Shown piece after piece: positions 5,469 to 33,318 of a stretch of 64,000 nucleotides of DNA. The stretch is from Thermosipho sp. (in: thermotogales) (GTDB lineage Bacteria > Thermotogota > Thermotogae > Thermotogales > Fervidobacteriaceae). The position numbers and the translations under genes were made by a program. The stretch covers positions 1-64,000 of the forward strand of contig JACDOA010000008.1 in assembly GCA_017656335.1 (NCBI GenBank), written 5' to 3'. The first letter of the stretch is position 1. Every line of letters starts with the position of its first letter. A model generated the notes under the pieces. It did no database searches and was not told the DNA's origin. It saw only the letters and a program-made list of their open reading frames with translations.

Positions 5469-7068
5469 TTTTTACCTTCCTTTCAAGCGAAACAACTCTC
5501 TCCGACTCAGCTTCCTCTTTGAGTTTTTTTAATTGCTCAATTTCTTCTTTTCGATTTTCGCTAAGCGTAATTTTATAAATCTCATTATCTGCCATGATTC
5601 TTAAAATTGTACCTGTAATCTCTGCCCCAATTGTCTTTGGTTCAATAACATGTGAATTAGGAAGAAATGCTTCAATTTCTTCAATTTCAACAATATAACC
5701 ACCTTTGACTTCTTTGACTATTTTTCCTGAAACTAAATCCCCTTCTTTATGGGTTTCAGCAAATAATTTCCAAGGATTCGGAGTGGCTTTTTTAATACTT
5801 AATCTCAGTTTTCTTTCTTTTTTGTTCAAATTCATAATTAATACTTTGACTTTCTGACCAATTTTTACAACATCTTCAGGTTTCTCTACATATTTCCAAG
5901 ATAATTCAGAAATTGGACAGAAACCACTAATTTCTTCTTCTAAATCAATTATTACACCTGAGTTTAAAATTGCACCCACTATACCAGTAGCTATGTTCCC
6001 TTCCGGATATTTTTCTTCAATATTCTCCCAGGGATCTCCTTTGGCTTCTTTATAACTAAGCGATATTTTTCTATTCTCTTTATCAATTTCTTTTACAACT
6101 ACTTTTACTACATCTCCTTCAGAAACAATATCTCTTAATTTGCCAGGTCTTCCCCAAAATACTTCATTTATGTGAACTAGCCCTTCAATGCCAGGCTCTA
6201 AATTTACAAAAAATCCAAATGGCATTATCTTTTTTACAGTTCCGCTTACAATAGCCCCAACAGGATATTTCTTTTCGATATTTTCCCAAGGATCTGGCAT
6301 AAGAGCTTTCAAACTTAATACAATTCTTTTTCTTTCTTTATCAATATCTTTAATTAACAACTTGACTGATTGTCCAACTCTAAAAACATCCTCAGCTGTT
6401 AAAGAAGAGTCATAAGAAACTTCAGAATTTGGAACAAGACCTGAAATTCCCTCAGCAAGTCTCACAAAAGCACCGAATTTTTCTATTTTTTCAATTATAC
6501 CTTCCACGACATCTCCTTGTTTTCTCTCTGAATAGAACTTCTCTTTCATTTCATTTATTATAGCCCTTCTTGATAAAACAATATTTAATCTTTTTCTTGA
6601 AGATTCAAATTTTATAATCTTAAATTCTAAATACTCAACAGGTGTTTCTTCACCTTTACGGATCAAAGATTCTCTTCCAGGCAAAAAGGCTTCAATAACA
6701 TTGTCAATGAGGACTTTGTAGCCACCTTTGGTAGATTCCTTAATCTTACCTAAAACTTTTTCACCTTTTTCAAACTTTTCTTTTAATAGCTCTCTTGCTT
6801 TCCTTAAATATACTTTCTTTTCAGATAAAACGGCTGTTCCTTCCTCTTCATTTATTTTTAATACCATTAAATTAAGCTTTTCACCAGGTTTATAATTAAC
6901 GGGTTCTTTGATCAATTCATCGGCCGGAACAATCCCCTCACCTTTCCATCCAAAATCCACAAAAACATCAGATTCGGTAGTTTTAACTACCACTCCTTCT
7001 ACAAGTGATCTTCCCTTGACTTCTTCAAATAAATAATTTTCCAACATTTTTTCGAAGTTGTTTTCCAT
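5437..7068 (-). CDS. rpsA: 30S ribosomal protein S1
   Basis: 543 residues with six S1 RNA-binding repeats, starting near 19, 103, 184, 271, 358 and 445. The middle repeats are the most canonical (for example [20 protein letters not shown]). The protein helps load mRNA on the 30S subunit. The ATG is one base after the stop of ispH; in some Clostridia, and as I recall in T. maritima, IspH and S1 are a single fused protein. The order cmk-ispH-rpsA-der is a conserved block. A GGAGGG ribosome site lies inside the end of ispH. Confidence 0.93.
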
Positions 7069-28476: not shown

Positions 28477-30228
28477 ATGGTAAAAATCCTTATAAATGGC
28501 AAAGAATATGAAGTCCCAGAAAATATCACTGTATTAGAAGCAGCAGAAAAAGTCGGATTCAAAATTCCAACTCTTTGTCATCATCCTGAACTTGAACCAA
28601 TTGGAGCATGTAGAATATGTGTTGTTGAAATTGAAGGTGCAAAAACTCTTCAACCTGCTTGTACAACAAAGGTTTCAGATGGAATGAAAATTAAAACGAA
28701 TTCTGAAAGAGTAACTAATGCTATAAAGTTTAATCTATCACTTATAATGGCAAATCATCCAAATGATTGTATGTATTGTGAAGCAGATCAAAGATGTGAA
28801 CTTAAAAATCTTGTTCATATATATGATGTTAAACCATTGCTTCCACCCTCTGATCTAATTGAAGTTTTTGATGATAGTAGCCCTTCTATTCAAAGGGATC
28901 TTTCTAGATGTATAAAATGCCAACGATGTGTTAGAGTATGTAATGAAATTCAAGGAATGAGTATCTATTCAATGATTGAAAGAGGTTTCAAAACTATTCC
29001 TCAAACAGCATTTGATAAACCCGTCTATGAAACAGATTGTATTTCATGCGGACAATGTTCATACCTTTGCCCAGTCGGCGCAATTTATGAAACTCCAGAT
29101 TGGAAAAAAGTCTTAAGAATCTTAGATAAAAAAGAAAAAATTCTTGTTGCACAAACTGCTCCTTCTGTTAGAGTTGCTATCGGAGAAGAATTTGGAATGG
29201 AATCAGGCTCAATAAGCACTGGAAAAATGGTAGCTGCAATAAGAAAGTTAGGTTTTGATTATGTTTTTGATACTAATTTTGCAGCTGACCTTACTATAAT
29301 GGAGGAAGGAACTGAACTTATTAATAGATTAAAAGAAGGCGGCCCATTCCCAATGTTTACCAGTTGTTGCCCTGGTTGGATTAATTTACTTGAAAAACAG
29401 TACCCAGAATTTATTAAAAATGCTTCATCTGCAAAATCACCTCAACAGATGATGAGCTCTCTTGTAAAAACATATTTTGCAAAGAAAATTGGAGTTGATC
29501 CAGAAGATATTATAATGGTTTCAATTATGCCTTGTACAGCCAAGAAAGATGAAATTACAAGACCTCAGCAAAAGATCAAACTTGAAGATGGAAGAGAAAT
29601 AAAGGTAACAGATTATGTAATTACAACTAGAGAATTAGCTAAATTAATTAAATTCAAAGAAATTAATTTTGCAGGGTTGCCTGACGAAGAGTTTGACAGT
29701 CCACTTGGTGTTTCAACGGGTGCAGGAGCTATATTTGGTGTGACAGGTGGTGTTATGGAAGCGGCACTTAGAACCGCTTATGAAATCTTAACCGAAGAAA
29801 AATTACCGAAACTTGAATTTAATGCAGTTAGAGGACTTGAAGGGATAAGAGAAGCTGAAATTGAAATTAAAGGAAAAAAATTTAAAGTAGCTATTGCACA
29901 CGGTACTGGAAATGTCAAAAAATTACTTGATGATATTAGAGATGGTCGAAGGTATTATGATTTCATAGAAATTATGGCTTGTTTAGGGGGATGTATAGGT
30001 GGCGGAGGTCAACCCAAGAGTCTTGATCCTGATATTCTCCAAAAAAGAGCCAACGCTATTTACACTATAGACGAAAGAAGCACCTTAAGAAGATCACATG
30101 AAAATCCAGATGTTCAAAAGCTTTATGCTGAATTTCTTGAACATCCTTATAGCCATATTGCTCACGAATTACTCCATACTTACTACACTGACAGATCAAA
30201 AAACAAAAGCAAAGTGTTATCAAACTAA
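28477..30228 (+). CDS. hydA: [FeFe] hydrogenase, monomeric type
   Basis: 583 residues. The N-terminal 2Fe-2S domain has Cys 34, 45, 48 and 62; a His-Cys cluster site follows (His 94, Cys 98, 101, 107); then two 4Fe-4S motifs, CIKCQRCVRVC and CISCGQCSYLC. The H-cluster motifs are TSCCPGW (295-301), MPCTAKKDE (351-359) and MACLGGCIGGGGQP near 505. The layout and length match Clostridium-type single-subunit hydrogenases. The flavin- and NADH-binding partners of the trimeric Thermotoga enzyme are not adjacent, so it probably takes electrons from ferredoxin. GAGGAGG ribosome site. Confidence 0.95.
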   Translation: MVKILINGKEYEVPENITVLEAAEKVGFKIPTLCHHPELEPIGACRICVVEIEGAKTLQPACTTKVSDGMKIKTNSERVTNAIKFNLSLIMANHPNDCMYCEADQRCELKNLVHIYDVKPLLPPSDLIEVFDDSSPSIQRDLSRCIKCQRCVRVCNEIQGMSIYSMIERGFKTIPQTAFDKPVYETDCISCGQCSYLCPVGAIYETPDWKKVLRILDKKEKILVAQTAPSVRVAIGEEFGMESGSISTGKMVAAIRKLGFDYVFDTNFAADLTIMEEGTELINRLKEGGPFPMFTSCCPGWINLLEKQYPEFIKNASSAKSPQQMMSSLVKTYFAKKIGVDPEDIIMVSIMPCTAKKDEITRPQQKIKLEDGREIKVTDYVITTRELAKLIKFKEINFAGLPDEEFDSPLGVSTGAGAIFGVTGGVMEAALRTAYEILTEEKLPKLEFNAVRGLEGIREAEIEIKGKKFKVAIAHGTGNVKKLLDDIRDGRRYYDFIEIMACLGGCIGGGGQPKSLDPDILQKRANAIYTIDERSTLRRSHENPDVQKLYAEFLEHPYSHIAHELLHTYYTDRSKNKSKVLSN

Positions 30229-30252: not shown

Positions 30253-30373
30253 TAAAATTAGATAGGACTTTCTGAGGTGAAGGGATTAAATCCTGACACC
30301 AAGGAAAGGGGAAAAGTTAACGGAACAAATTTATTCCCCCTTCCTTGGTGTTAAAGAGGAAGGGGGAATTTTT
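30253..30373 (+). promoter_or_regulatory. Candidate riboswitch/attenuator leader of the hydrogenase-maturation operon
   Basis: Three competing structures are visible. (1) A compact stem, 30268-30308: CTTTC with GAAAG, GGTG with CACC, and GGGA with TCCT around a TTAAA loop, separated by small purine internal loops. (2) A 17-bp helix with one A-C mismatch, 30297-30313 with 30334-30350. (3) A perfect 11-bp helix, 30334-30344 with 30358-30368, followed by TTTTT and the ATG. Structure 3 looks like a terminator and buries the ribosome site; structure 2 blocks it; structure 1 blocks structure 2. I did not match it to a known riboswitch class. Ligand unknown. Confidence 0.65.
30334..30373 (+). terminator. 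Conditional terminator overlapping the ribosome site of the TM1266-like gene
   Basis: TTCCCCCTTCC pairs perfectly with GGAAGGGGGAA across a 13-base loop; five T residues follow and the start codon comes immediately after. The downstream arm contains the purine-rich ribosome binding site. Confidence 0.6.
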
Positions 30374-30616
30374 ATGGAAAGATATTATTCAGTTGATATT
30401 ATTGTAAGAGATAGAAACTCTGCATACGACAAGGTTAACGAATTACTTCATATGTATGCAAAATACATCAAATTAAGAGTAGGATATCCTTTAGACTCTG
30501 AAAATATGGCAATAATATTTGTTATTTTTAAAGCAAATAATGATATTTTAGGAAGTTTTACTGGTAAGCTTGGACAAATTAAAAACGTAAAAGTAAAAAG
30601 TATACCACTAAATTAA
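30374..30616 (+). CDS. TM1266-family putative regulator of the [FeFe]-hydrogenase system
   Basis: 80 residues. The sequence pattern RYYSVDIIVRDRNSAYDKVN, then RVGYPLDSENMAIIFVI and LGQIKNVKVKS, fits the small ACT-like/NikR-C-like family named after T. maritima TM1266, found beside hydrogenase maturase genes. Its molecular function is not established. First gene of the maturase operon; its ribosome site is inside the leader hairpin. It is followed 12 bases later by hydG. Confidence 0.85.
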   Translation: MERYYSVDIIVRDRNSAYDKVNELLHMYAKYIKLRVGYPLDSENMAIIFVIFKANNDILGSFTGKLGQIKNVKVKSIPLN

Positions 30617-30628
30617 AGAGGTGAAAAT

Positions 30629-32044
30629 ATGTATATTTTTATAAAAGAAAAAGAGGATGAAAAAACTTTTATAGACGAAGAAAATATTTTCAAACTATTG
30701 GAAAAAAACAAGAATCCAGATAAGAATAAAGTTAGAGATATCCTTCAAAAATCTATAGCAAAGCAAAGGCTTGAACCCAACGAAGTAGCAACTCTTTTAA
30801 ATGTTAACAGTAAAGAACAATGGGATGAAATTTTTGAAGCTGCAAGATTATTAAAAGAAAAAGTATATGGTAATAGAATAGTTCTTTTTGCACCACTTTA
30901 TATTGGTAACGAATGCATTAATGATTGTGAATATTGTGGTTTTAGAATTTCAAATAAGTATGTTATAAGGAAAACTCTAAATTCTGAGGAATTAAAAAAC
31001 GAAGTAAAAGCATTAGTTTCTAAAGGTCACAAAAGATTAATCGTAGTATTTGGAGAACATCCAAAATATTCACCTGAATTTATTGCTAAAACAATTGATT
31101 TAATTTACAATACAAAACTCGGTAATGGGGAAATACGCAGAGTCAACGTAAATGCTGCTCCCCAAACTGTAGAAGGATACAAAATAATTAAAAGCGTTGG
31201 AATTGGTACTTTTCAAATTTTCCAAGAAACTTATCACCTGCCTACATACCGAAAAATGCATCCAAAAGGCCCAAAATCAAATTTTGCTTGGAGACTATAT
31301 GGCTTAGACAGAGCTATGATTGCTGGAATTGATGATGTAGGTATAGGAGCATTATTTGGTTTATACAATTGGAAATTTGAAGTAATGGGTTTAATCTATC
31401 ATACCATTCATCTTGAAGAAAGATTTGGAGTTGGTCCCCATACTATCTCTTTTCCAAGAATTGAACCTGCTGTTGGAACTCCTATTACTCAAATACCGCC
31501 TTACCAAGTTAATGATGAAGATTTTAAAAAACTTGTTGCAGTGTTAAGACTTTCTGTACCATATACTGGTTTGATACTAACTGCAAGAGAACCAGTAAAT
31601 TTAAGAAGAGAAGTACTTAAACTCGGAGTTTCACAAATAGATGCAGGGTCAAGTATAGGAGTTGGTTCATATTCTGAAACTGATCCAGAAATAATTAAAA
31701 AAAGCCAATTCATATTGGGTGATACTAGAACTTTAGACGAAGTAATTTATGAACTTCTTAAAGAAAACTATATTCCTTCGTTCTGTACTGCTTGTTATCG
31801 TGCTGGAAGAACTGGAGAACATTTTATGGAATTTGCGATCCCAGGTTTTGTAAAAAGATTCTGTACACCCAATGCTTTATTTACATTGAATGAATATTTG
31901 AATGATTACGCAACATCAAAAACTAAAAATTTAGGTAAAGTCATAATTGAAAAAGAATTGGAAAAAATTCCTGAACCACAAAAATCAGCTATTTTTGAAG
32001 GTATAAAAAAAATTGATATAGGTGAAAGAGATGTCAGATTTTAA
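30629..32044 (+). CDS. hydG: [FeFe]-hydrogenase maturase HydG (tyrosine lyase)
   Basis: 471 residues. The radical SAM motif CINDCEYCGF (CX3CX2C) is near residues 96-105. The C-terminal auxiliary-cluster motif CTACYRAGRTGEHFM and a further cysteine in KRFCTP make CX2CX22C, specific to HydG rather than ThiH. It cleaves tyrosine to supply CO and cyanide for the H-cluster. GAGGTG ribosome site five bases before the ATG. It overlaps the next small gene by 14 bases. Confidence 0.96.
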   Translation: MYIFIKEKEDEKTFIDEENIFKLLEKNKNPDKNKVRDILQKSIAKQRLEPNEVATLLNVNSKEQWDEIFEAARLLKEKVYGNRIVLFAPLYIGNECINDCEYCGFRISNKYVIRKTLNSEELKNEVKALVSKGHKRLIVVFGEHPKYSPEFIAKTIDLIYNTKLGNGEIRRVNVNAAPQTVEGYKIIKSVGIGTFQIFQETYHLPTYRKMHPKGPKSNFAWRLYGLDRAMIAGIDDVGIGALFGLYNWKFEVMGLIYHTIHLEERFGVGPHTISFPRIEPAVGTPITQIPPYQVNDEDFKKLVAVLRLSVPYTGLILTAREPVNLRREVLKLGVSQIDAGSSIGVGSYSETDPEIIKKSQFILGDTRTLDEVIYELLKENYIPSFCTACYRAGRTGEHFMEFAIPGFVKRFCTPNALFTLNEYLNDYATSKTKNLGKVIIEKELEKIPEPQKSAIFEGIKKIDIGERDVRF

Positions 32045-32291
32045 AACTCTGAAAAACCTCTTAGAGCAAATAGCTGAAAAGTACAATTGCAAAATTTGGA
32101 TAGCTCAAAAAATTGGAAAAAGAATTTCTTTTATCAAAAACTTAAAGGCCGGAAAGGAATTTTTTACATCTCCTAAAATTCTTTGGGAAAATGAAAACTT
32201 TATCATTTTTGCCGAAAATGTGAATTCAATTGATAATAACTTTCAAGAAACACTAAATGAGGTGATTAAAATTGTCGAAACTTTTAAATAA
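32031..32291 (+). CDS. Small unknown protein between hydG and hydE
   Basis: 86 residues from ATG 32031, with GGTG six bases upstream; a GTG at 32022 is less well placed. Not recognised. It has one cysteine, is lysine-rich, and alternates helix-like (LKNLLEQIAEKYNC) and strand-like (KIWIAQKIGKRISFI, FIIFAENVN) segments, perhaps a small GAF- or profilin-like fold. It overlaps hydG by 14 bases and hydE by 20, so is clearly co-translated with the maturases. Function may be in H-cluster assembly or regulation, by context only. Confidence 0.75.
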   Translation: MSDFKTLKNLLEQIAEKYNCKIWIAQKIGKRISFIKNLKAGKEFFTSPKILWENENFIIFAENVNSIDNNFQETLNEVIKIVETFK

Positions 32292-33318
32292 GTTAAAATA
32301 CAAAAGAGATTCTGTTACTTTAGAAGAACTAATTTTTCTTTTATCAACCAATAAATTCGATAAAAAAATTTTCGAAATAGCTGATGAAGTTAGAGAAAAA
32401 TATGTTGGAAATGAAGTTCATATTAGGGCAATCATCGAATTTTCAAATTTTTGTAAAATGGATTGTCTGTATTGTGGATTAAGAAGACAAAACAAAAATA
32501 TAAAAAGATATCGAATGAATCCTGAAGAAATATTAAAACGTGTAAGATTGATAGCGGAAAAAAATATTAAAACAGTGGTGTTACAATCCGGTGAAGACCC
32601 GTATTATAATACTGAAATTATTGAAAACTTAATAATCGAAATTAAAAAAATGAATTTGGCAGTTACCTTAAGTATTGGAGAAAGAAATTTTGAGGAATAC
32701 AAAATATGGAAAAATGCAGGCGCAGATAGATACTTAATGAGGCACGAAACAGCAGATCCAAATTTATACAAAAAACTTCATCCAAGTGACACTTTTGAAA
32801 ACAGAAAAAGTCATCTACTTAAACTTAAAGAGCTAGGATATGAAATTGGTGGGGGTTGTATGGTAGGACTTCCTGGACAAGGACCTTATGAACTTGCCAA
32901 AGATCTAATTTTTCTAAGAGAAATTGACTCTGACATGATTGGTATTGGACCTTTTATTCCTAATCCAGAAACACCATTAAGGAAAGAAAAAGGAGGAAAT
33001 TTAAACACTACACTAAAAATGATAGCTCTATCCAGAATTTTAATTCCTACTGCAAATATTCCAGCAACAACTGCCATGGGTAGTATTCATCCTTTTGGAA
33101 GACAAATAGCTTTAAAATGTGGTGCAAACGTCATAATGCCTAACCTGACACCAAATCCTTATAGACCTAATTACACATTATATCCAAATAAAATCTGTTT
33201 GTTTGAAAGAGATACAGCTTGTATAAACTGTGTAAAGGGGATGATAACAAATCTTGGTAGAGAAATAGGAAAATCATTCGGTTTTAGAATAAAAAATCTT
33301 CAAACCAATGAAGTATAA
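32272..33318 (+). CDS. hydE: [FeFe]-hydrogenase maturase HydE (radical SAM)
   Basis: 348 residues. The radical SAM motif CKMDCLYCGL is near residues 61-70. A second, C-terminal cluster motif CLFERDTACINC (CX7CX2C) matches the T. maritima-type HydE. It helps build the dithiolate ligand of the H-cluster. TTG start with GAGGTGA upstream. The third maturase, the GTPase HydF, is not in the window. The end overlaps the convergent amidohydrolase by 19 bases. Confidence 0.95.
   Translation: MSKLLNKLKYKRDSVTLEELIFLLSTNKFDKKIFEIADEVREKYVGNEVHIRAIIEFSNFCKMDCLYCGLRRQNKNIKRYRMNPEEILKRVRLIAEKNIKTVVLQSGEDPYYNTEIIENLIIEIKKMNLAVTLSIGERNFEEYKIWKNAGADRYLMRHETADPNLYKKLHPSDTFENRKSHLLKLKELGYEIGGGCMVGLPGQGPYELAKDLIFLREIDSDMIGIGPFIPNPETPLRKEKGGNLNTTLKMIALSRILIPTANIPATTAMGSIHPFGRQIALKCGANVIMPNLTPNPYRPNYTLYPNKICLFERDTACINCVKGMITNLGREIGKSFGFRIKNLQTNEV

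Follow-up and report, generated by a model that had tools for sequence, protein, structure and literature searches.

Termination control of pyr operons by PyrR is among the closest described counterparts of the leader considered here. In that system (PyrR binding RNA, RF00515), an upstream stem stabilised by its binder frees a terminator, and otherwise an antiterminator forms. Metabolite riboswitches, such as those of the TPP, SAM, NiCo and preQ1 classes, offer a second comparison, with a small conserved sensor domain that overlaps the expression platform and with variants acting on termination and on translation. A further line of background comes from the TM1266-like protein family (PF21699, TIGR03959; structure 2nzc), whose annotation, 'putative iron-only hydrogenase system regulator', already presumes regulation. 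A literature search found no target or mechanism for this family, no regulation of [FeFe]-hydrogenase cofactor assembly at the level of RNA, and nothing relevant on riboswitches, RNA motifs or attenuation for these genes; paywalled papers and preprints were outside its scope, and an earlier report is possible. Neither hydG nor hydE is mentioned in the main text of a structured-RNA survey of 26 genomes, a Thermotogae genome among them.

The locus lies in a 64,000-nucleotide stretch of Thermosipho sp. DNA, referred to as the window, in the leader of a TM1266-like/hydG/hydE operon. As in the pyr systems, the proposed binder is the product of the first operon gene. The element nevertheless differs from PyrR binding RNA in sequence, symmetry and regulon, and its binder, which belongs to a family unrelated to PyrR, is a predicted one. 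From metabolite riboswitches it is set apart by a symmetric stem with two GA-type tandem mismatches, rather than a junction or pseudoknot. Leaving the role of TM1266 aside, we are highly confident that this leader is a real, conserved cis-regulatory attenuator of [FeFe]-hydrogenase maturation genes, and we assign it to a new class of such RNAs.

Architecture of the leader in the window

The genes and RNA parts of the locus are the following:

28477–30228, + strand: hydA, group A6 [FeFe]-hydrogenase (NF040763, 862 bits)
30264–30314, + strand: switch domain, the conserved RNA element as matched over its full length by the covariance model, with its stem at 30268–30308
30272–30283, + strand: half-site A, CUGA-GGUG-AAGG, with the same eight conserved letters as half-site B
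30293–30304, + strand: half-site B, CUGA-CACC-AAGG, partner of half-site A
30297–30313, + strand: antiterminator 5' arm, overlapping half-site B
30334–30350, + strand: antiterminator 3' arm, of which 30334–30344 doubles as terminator 5' arm
30358–30373, + strand: terminator 3' arm (30358–30368) and U-run (30369–30373)
30374–30616, + strand: TM1266-like gene, proposed trans-acting partner (PF21699 / TIGR03959)
30629–32044, + strand: hydG, presumed regulated gene from the position of the element (TIGR03955, 518 bits)
32272–33318, + strand: hydE, likewise presumed regulated from its position (TIGR03956, 367 bits)

The gene context is thus as originally claimed, and the profile matches agree with it; the TM1266-like protein scores 91.5 bits in one profile search and 99.3 bits against a cut-off of 60.8 in another. 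Since hydA ends about 35 nt upstream of the element, the switch could act in the window as an intra-operon attenuator that separates the enzyme from its maturases. An 89-aa open reading frame without a Pfam or NCBIfam match lies between hydG and hydE (32022–32291); its relatives occupy the same place in many genomes, and it may be an unnamed component of the maturation operon.

The original prediction placed three mutually exclusive helices in this leader, and both a pairing check and step-wise folding recovered them. The upstream stem (30268–30308) is composed of CUUUCU/GGAAAG, GGUG/CACC and GGGAU/AUCCU, and its two predicted internal loops are of GA type, so that the GGUG/CACC pairing of the half-sites lies between two GA-type tandem mismatches. 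The 17-bp antiterminator (30297–30313/30334–30350) contains 16 pairs and the one expected mismatch, while the terminator consists of 11 perfect pairs (30334–30344/30358–30368) followed by TTTTT at 30369–30373, directly before the ATG that starts at 30374. Within the terminator 3' arm, the purine-rich GGAAGGGGG is likely the ribosome site. Stem, antiterminator and terminator accordingly stand in the anti-antiterminator, antiterminator and terminator relationship of a PyrR-type attenuator.

The fold energy of the leader lies below that of all 200 dinucleotide shuffles (z = -3.96). During step-wise folding, with the same outcome at 37 C and 65 C, the stem appears first, the antiterminator is formed when the RNA ends at about 30350–30364, and the stem together with the terminator prevails from 30368 onward. 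A simple terminator scan of the leader did not detect the hairpin, whose long loop is the probable reason.

Comparison with Rfam 15 at gathering cut-offs, covering the window and 16 representative loci, returned only tRNA and one cspA leader, none of them at the element, and no known class fits at relaxed thresholds; the earlier claim of no match to known classes is upheld at cut-off. The architecture alone earns a score of 26.8 bits from the PyrR binding RNA model, obtained with permissive filters. That score and the same three-helix logic speak for a degenerate form of an established kind of leader, such as PyrR binding RNA, a T-box or a ribosomal-protein leader. We consider such an origin very improbable, as the gathering score for PyrR binding RNA is 54 bits, the regulon comprises hydrogenase maturation only, and the tRNA and cspA matches are unrelated.

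Conserved core, regulon and expression platforms in Thermotogota

Related genomes also carry the upstream element in front of TM1266. An exact-pattern scan of genome contigs with the Thermotogales consensus matched eight Thermotogota contigs only, including Thermosipho, Fervidobacterium and Pseudothermotoga; a descriptor scan also matched start-codon regions, and covariance models were hence adopted. The first of these, R1, scores the window element at 69.6 bits (E 5e-16, own genome) and detects copies in 64 of 103 Thermotogota genomes. This search for homologous leaders, which the original prediction had proposed, is the decisive comparative test.

The core is two-fold symmetric, with the form CUGA-N4-RAGG / loop / CUGA-N4'-RAGG, and the same letters predominate at the eight conserved positions of both halves in 80 distinct copies. 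This set was extracted with a scorer biased toward the consensus; R1 and a MAFFT alignment, both built without the scorer, agree with it. Pairing of the half-sites proceeds from C-G and U.G through a 2x2 loop of G.A/A.R type, a 4-bp helix and a second such loop to G.U and G-C, and the stem is closed by loops of 4–14 nt across copies. A kink-turn, which places tandem G.A pairs beside a 3-nt bulge, was considered and rejected, both GA motifs being symmetric 2x2 loops without a bulge.

The most variable positions are the pairs, not the loops. The middle helix occurs as GGUG/CACC, GAUG/CAUC, GGUU/GACC, GGCU/GGCC and GGUC/GACC, and further as GAUC/GAUC, CCGC/GCGG, UUAC/GUAA and others. Among the 26 copies of R1, 95% of the cells are paired, compensatory changes occur at 9 of 14 pairs, and 39 cells carry double changes against 11 in shuffles; in 69 copies, the changes extend to 10 of 14 pairs, with 167 double-change cells where 51 were expected. 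The compensatory changes in related genomes on which the original prediction was staked are therefore present and strong, and the element takes the form, typical of riboswitches, of a conserved, covarying structured domain in the 5' leaders of pathway genes.

Near-universally, the gene 3' of the element in the 57 copies checked is TM1266-hydG, hydG alone, hydF, hydE or hydA; hydF is preceded by a copy in all sampled g7 genomes and in some relatives. As copies precede TM1266-hydG-hydE, hydF, hydE and hydA, the element defines a regulon. In many Thermotogota (loci L069, L070, L072, L108, L115 and others), hydF behind the element is followed by a gene that we take to be aspartate ammonia-lyase-like, which the same switch would then cover. 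Two copies have no adjoining hyd gene. One (L075 1879–1920, G058 contig C38) is followed by unrelated sequence where the sister genomes G061–G063 have hydF, and looks like an insertion that has parted the switch from its gene. The other (L112 696–740, G067 contig C78) is an orphan directly after hydA with no hyd gene behind it, and its genome carries another copy before TM1266.

Two expression platforms are associated with the domain, their classes partly assigned by a simple rule that may be wrong for a few copies. The antiterminator/terminator platform, in which the 5' arm of a downstream terminator also serves an antiterminator that uses the 3' half of the element, accounts for 69 of 93 copies, the window included. 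In 13 of the 93, mostly from family f5, the 3' half of the element itself contains the Shine-Dalgarno sequence, directly ahead of the start codon. Judged by sequence, the domain would control 69 terminators and 13 Shine-Dalgarno sites, as in a riboswitch. When folded, the element should be the off state in both platforms, a direction in vivo that we infer.

These data also bear on whether the window hairpin might be an ordinary terminator of the upstream hydA, with alternative pairings arising by chance. The short distance to the end of hydA and the quality of the hairpin as a terminator fit such an origin. Yet the upstream stem is conserved, with compensatory changes, even in leaders that do not follow a hydA gene, the element precedes hydF, hydE or hydA elsewhere, and one family without the terminator covers the Shine-Dalgarno sequence instead. 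The comparative data refute a hydA terminator as a sufficient explanation, and we regard it as the least probable reading of all. Of the original prediction of an uncharacterised riboswitch or attenuator that is off when folded, the attenuator is supported by the covariation, by the distribution over a whole regulon, by both platforms and by the absence of an Rfam match; the riboswitch part is neither shown nor favoured.

Co-occurrence with TM1266 and the proposed binder

Seventy Thermotogota genomes carry hydG: 64 have both the element and TM1266, five have neither, one has TM1266 only, and none has the element only. In G048, TM1266 occurs without the element, and the start of the operon possibly lies beyond the contig edge. 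The five genomes lacking both (G094–G098) belong to one genus, whose member G099 has both, and probably reflect one loss event.

Outside the phylum, R1 finds the element (at least 20 bits) at 5 of 15 hydG loci with TM1266 and at 0 of 26 without it (Fisher p 0.004), the maximum among the latter being 11.4 bits. A broader model, R2, recovers 12 of the 15 (at least 16 bits) and again none of the 26 (at most 13.6 bits); R1, trained on Thermotogales alone, is the fair test here, because seven of the loci counted for R2 had served to train it. When 40 whole genomes were searched with R2, those without TM1266 yielded no credible copy. One match of 24 bits in such a genome (G110), in AT-rich sequence and with no hyd gene, was taken as chance. 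On a HydG tree of 53 sequences, eight independent pairs differ in TM1266, and the element tracks the protein in 7.2 of the eight on average and never runs opposite to it (sign test p 0.016 with R2, p 0.06 with the held-out R1). TM1266 occurs without the element in G184 and G226, as in G048, and G205 scores only 15 bits. The element thus appears to be confined to genomes that have TM1266.

Beyond the phylum, TM1266-hydG or hydG is preceded by the motif in G134, G207, G143, G228, G249, G115, G159, G214 and G229. HydG on plasmid records provided a route into Firmicutes loci: a Peptoclostridium plasmid (L127) carries the element, at 34.9 bits with R2, whose training set includes L127, and the Cetobacterium and Bacteroides plasmid-record loci showed neither TM1266 nor the element near hydG. 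On a Monoglobus plasmid record (L130, about 6460–6630), a TM1266-hydG leader combines a terminator with a diverged, incomplete motif. Tandem TM1266-like genes lie upstream of hydG at L216 / L177 (G214), where the element covers the Shine-Dalgarno sequence of the second. In another phylum, a scan of 295 genomes with strict filters gave a single match, which lies about 100 nt upstream of hydG; the genome concerned has TM1266 on another contig. In that phylum the element is rare or too diverged.

The AlphaFold model of the TM1266-like protein in the window (pLDDT 96) has 2nzc as its closest PDB entry, followed by NikR C-terminal and ACT domains, with a TM-score of 0.84 to NikR. The model thus suggests the fold of these small sensor domains; the TM1266-like proteins, unlike NikR, have no DNA-binding domain, and their alignment holds no invariant His or Cys for a NikR-type metal site. 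Most are basic (median pI 8.4; 9.4 in the window). They are encoded beside the RNA or in trans, and the RNA target is a new proposal here. TM1266 is unlinked, with the element still at hydG, in f11, f8, part of f5, G229 and G458, as the gene of a trans factor may be. As expected of the binder in a PyrR-type attenuator, TM1266 has its gene among those under control and shares its distribution with the RNA, although the gene is unlinked in several lineages. Separately, a second, weak PF21699 match (G000:C9:14132–14350) has counterparts in most relatives; these matches (about 22–33 bits, one per genome) represent a distant TM1266 paralogue, mostly away from hyd genes.

A symmetric RNA fits a symmetric oligomer, and this, together with the likeness of TM1266 to the NikR C-terminal sensor domain, counts for TM1266 as the binder. 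A true riboswitch is a less probable but serious alternative. The symmetric stem would then bind a small molecule or metal directly, for instance a product or substrate of H-cluster assembly, and be stabilised in the off state, TM1266 being a separate protein of the same pathway kept alongside. Compact, highly conserved internal loops, two platforms and a strict tie to one cofactor pathway are typical of riboswitches, and the element has no known protein binder; against this, the conserved core is a simple stem that has two GA-type tandem mismatches but lacks a multi-branch pocket, the identity of its half-sites suits a symmetric protein, and its presence tracks TM1266 rather than hydG, since among hydG loci without TM1266 it occurs in 0 of 26 from other phyla and in 0 of 5 from Thermotogota. 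A ligand sensed by both RNA and protein, or inheritance of the two as one module, would also produce the co-occurrence. The direct ligands suggested originally, namely tyrosine, SAM, iron or a redox cofactor, are not favoured; the symmetry of the core and the co-occurrence speak rather for a protein partner, which may itself sense the ligand.

Proteins commonly bind symmetric stem-loops that contain tandem G.A pairs, and another conserved protein, such as a general RNA-binding protein, or factors related to the ribosome or RNA polymerase might act on the element instead. We think this unlikely, since a general factor would not predict that the element keeps to the hyd regulon and follows TM1266 in its distribution.

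Proposed feedback control of hydrogenase maturation

With TM1266 as the partner, the 40-nt symmetric stem, once formed and held, would occupy the bases of the antiterminator, so that the terminator directly before the ATG would form and hydG and hydE would be off; release of the stem would let the antiterminator form and turn the genes on. In one Thermotogota family, where the 3' half of the stem is the Shine-Dalgarno sequence itself, the folded state would block translation. The stem would most likely be held by the TM1266-like protein, whose gene opens the operon or lies at another site in the genome. This protein would act on the leader by feedback, in the manner of PyrR, and a small molecule that it senses would probably tune its action. 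We lean slightly toward this whole account, with TM1266 as predicted binder in a PyrR-like feedback attenuation. We are evenly divided on the broader proposal that a stand-alone protein of ACT/NikR-C type, without a nucleic-acid-binding domain, reads a symmetric double tandem-G.A stem and thereby sets maturase supply across several bacterial phyla, mostly by termination and in some by Shine-Dalgarno masking.

In RNA-seq of T. neapolitana under CO2, TM1266 rose 5.98-fold, hydG 6.39-fold and hydE 7.52-fold, while hydF rose only 1.28-fold (PMC7039931). As hydF carries its own copy of the element in all sampled g7 genomes, apparently the genus Thermotoga, the copies may respond differently, or the CO2 response lies elsewhere. 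The expression data agree with strong operon control; a single signal acting on every copy does not fit them cleanly.

The analysis yields a defined regulon (hydA, hydE, hydF, hydG and TM1266) and a 40-nt element with clear covariation. By naming a candidate partner whose structure is solved (2nzc), it makes the role of the 'putative regulator' TM1266 directly testable, and it may help in engineering hydrogenase expression, where balanced maturases are needed.
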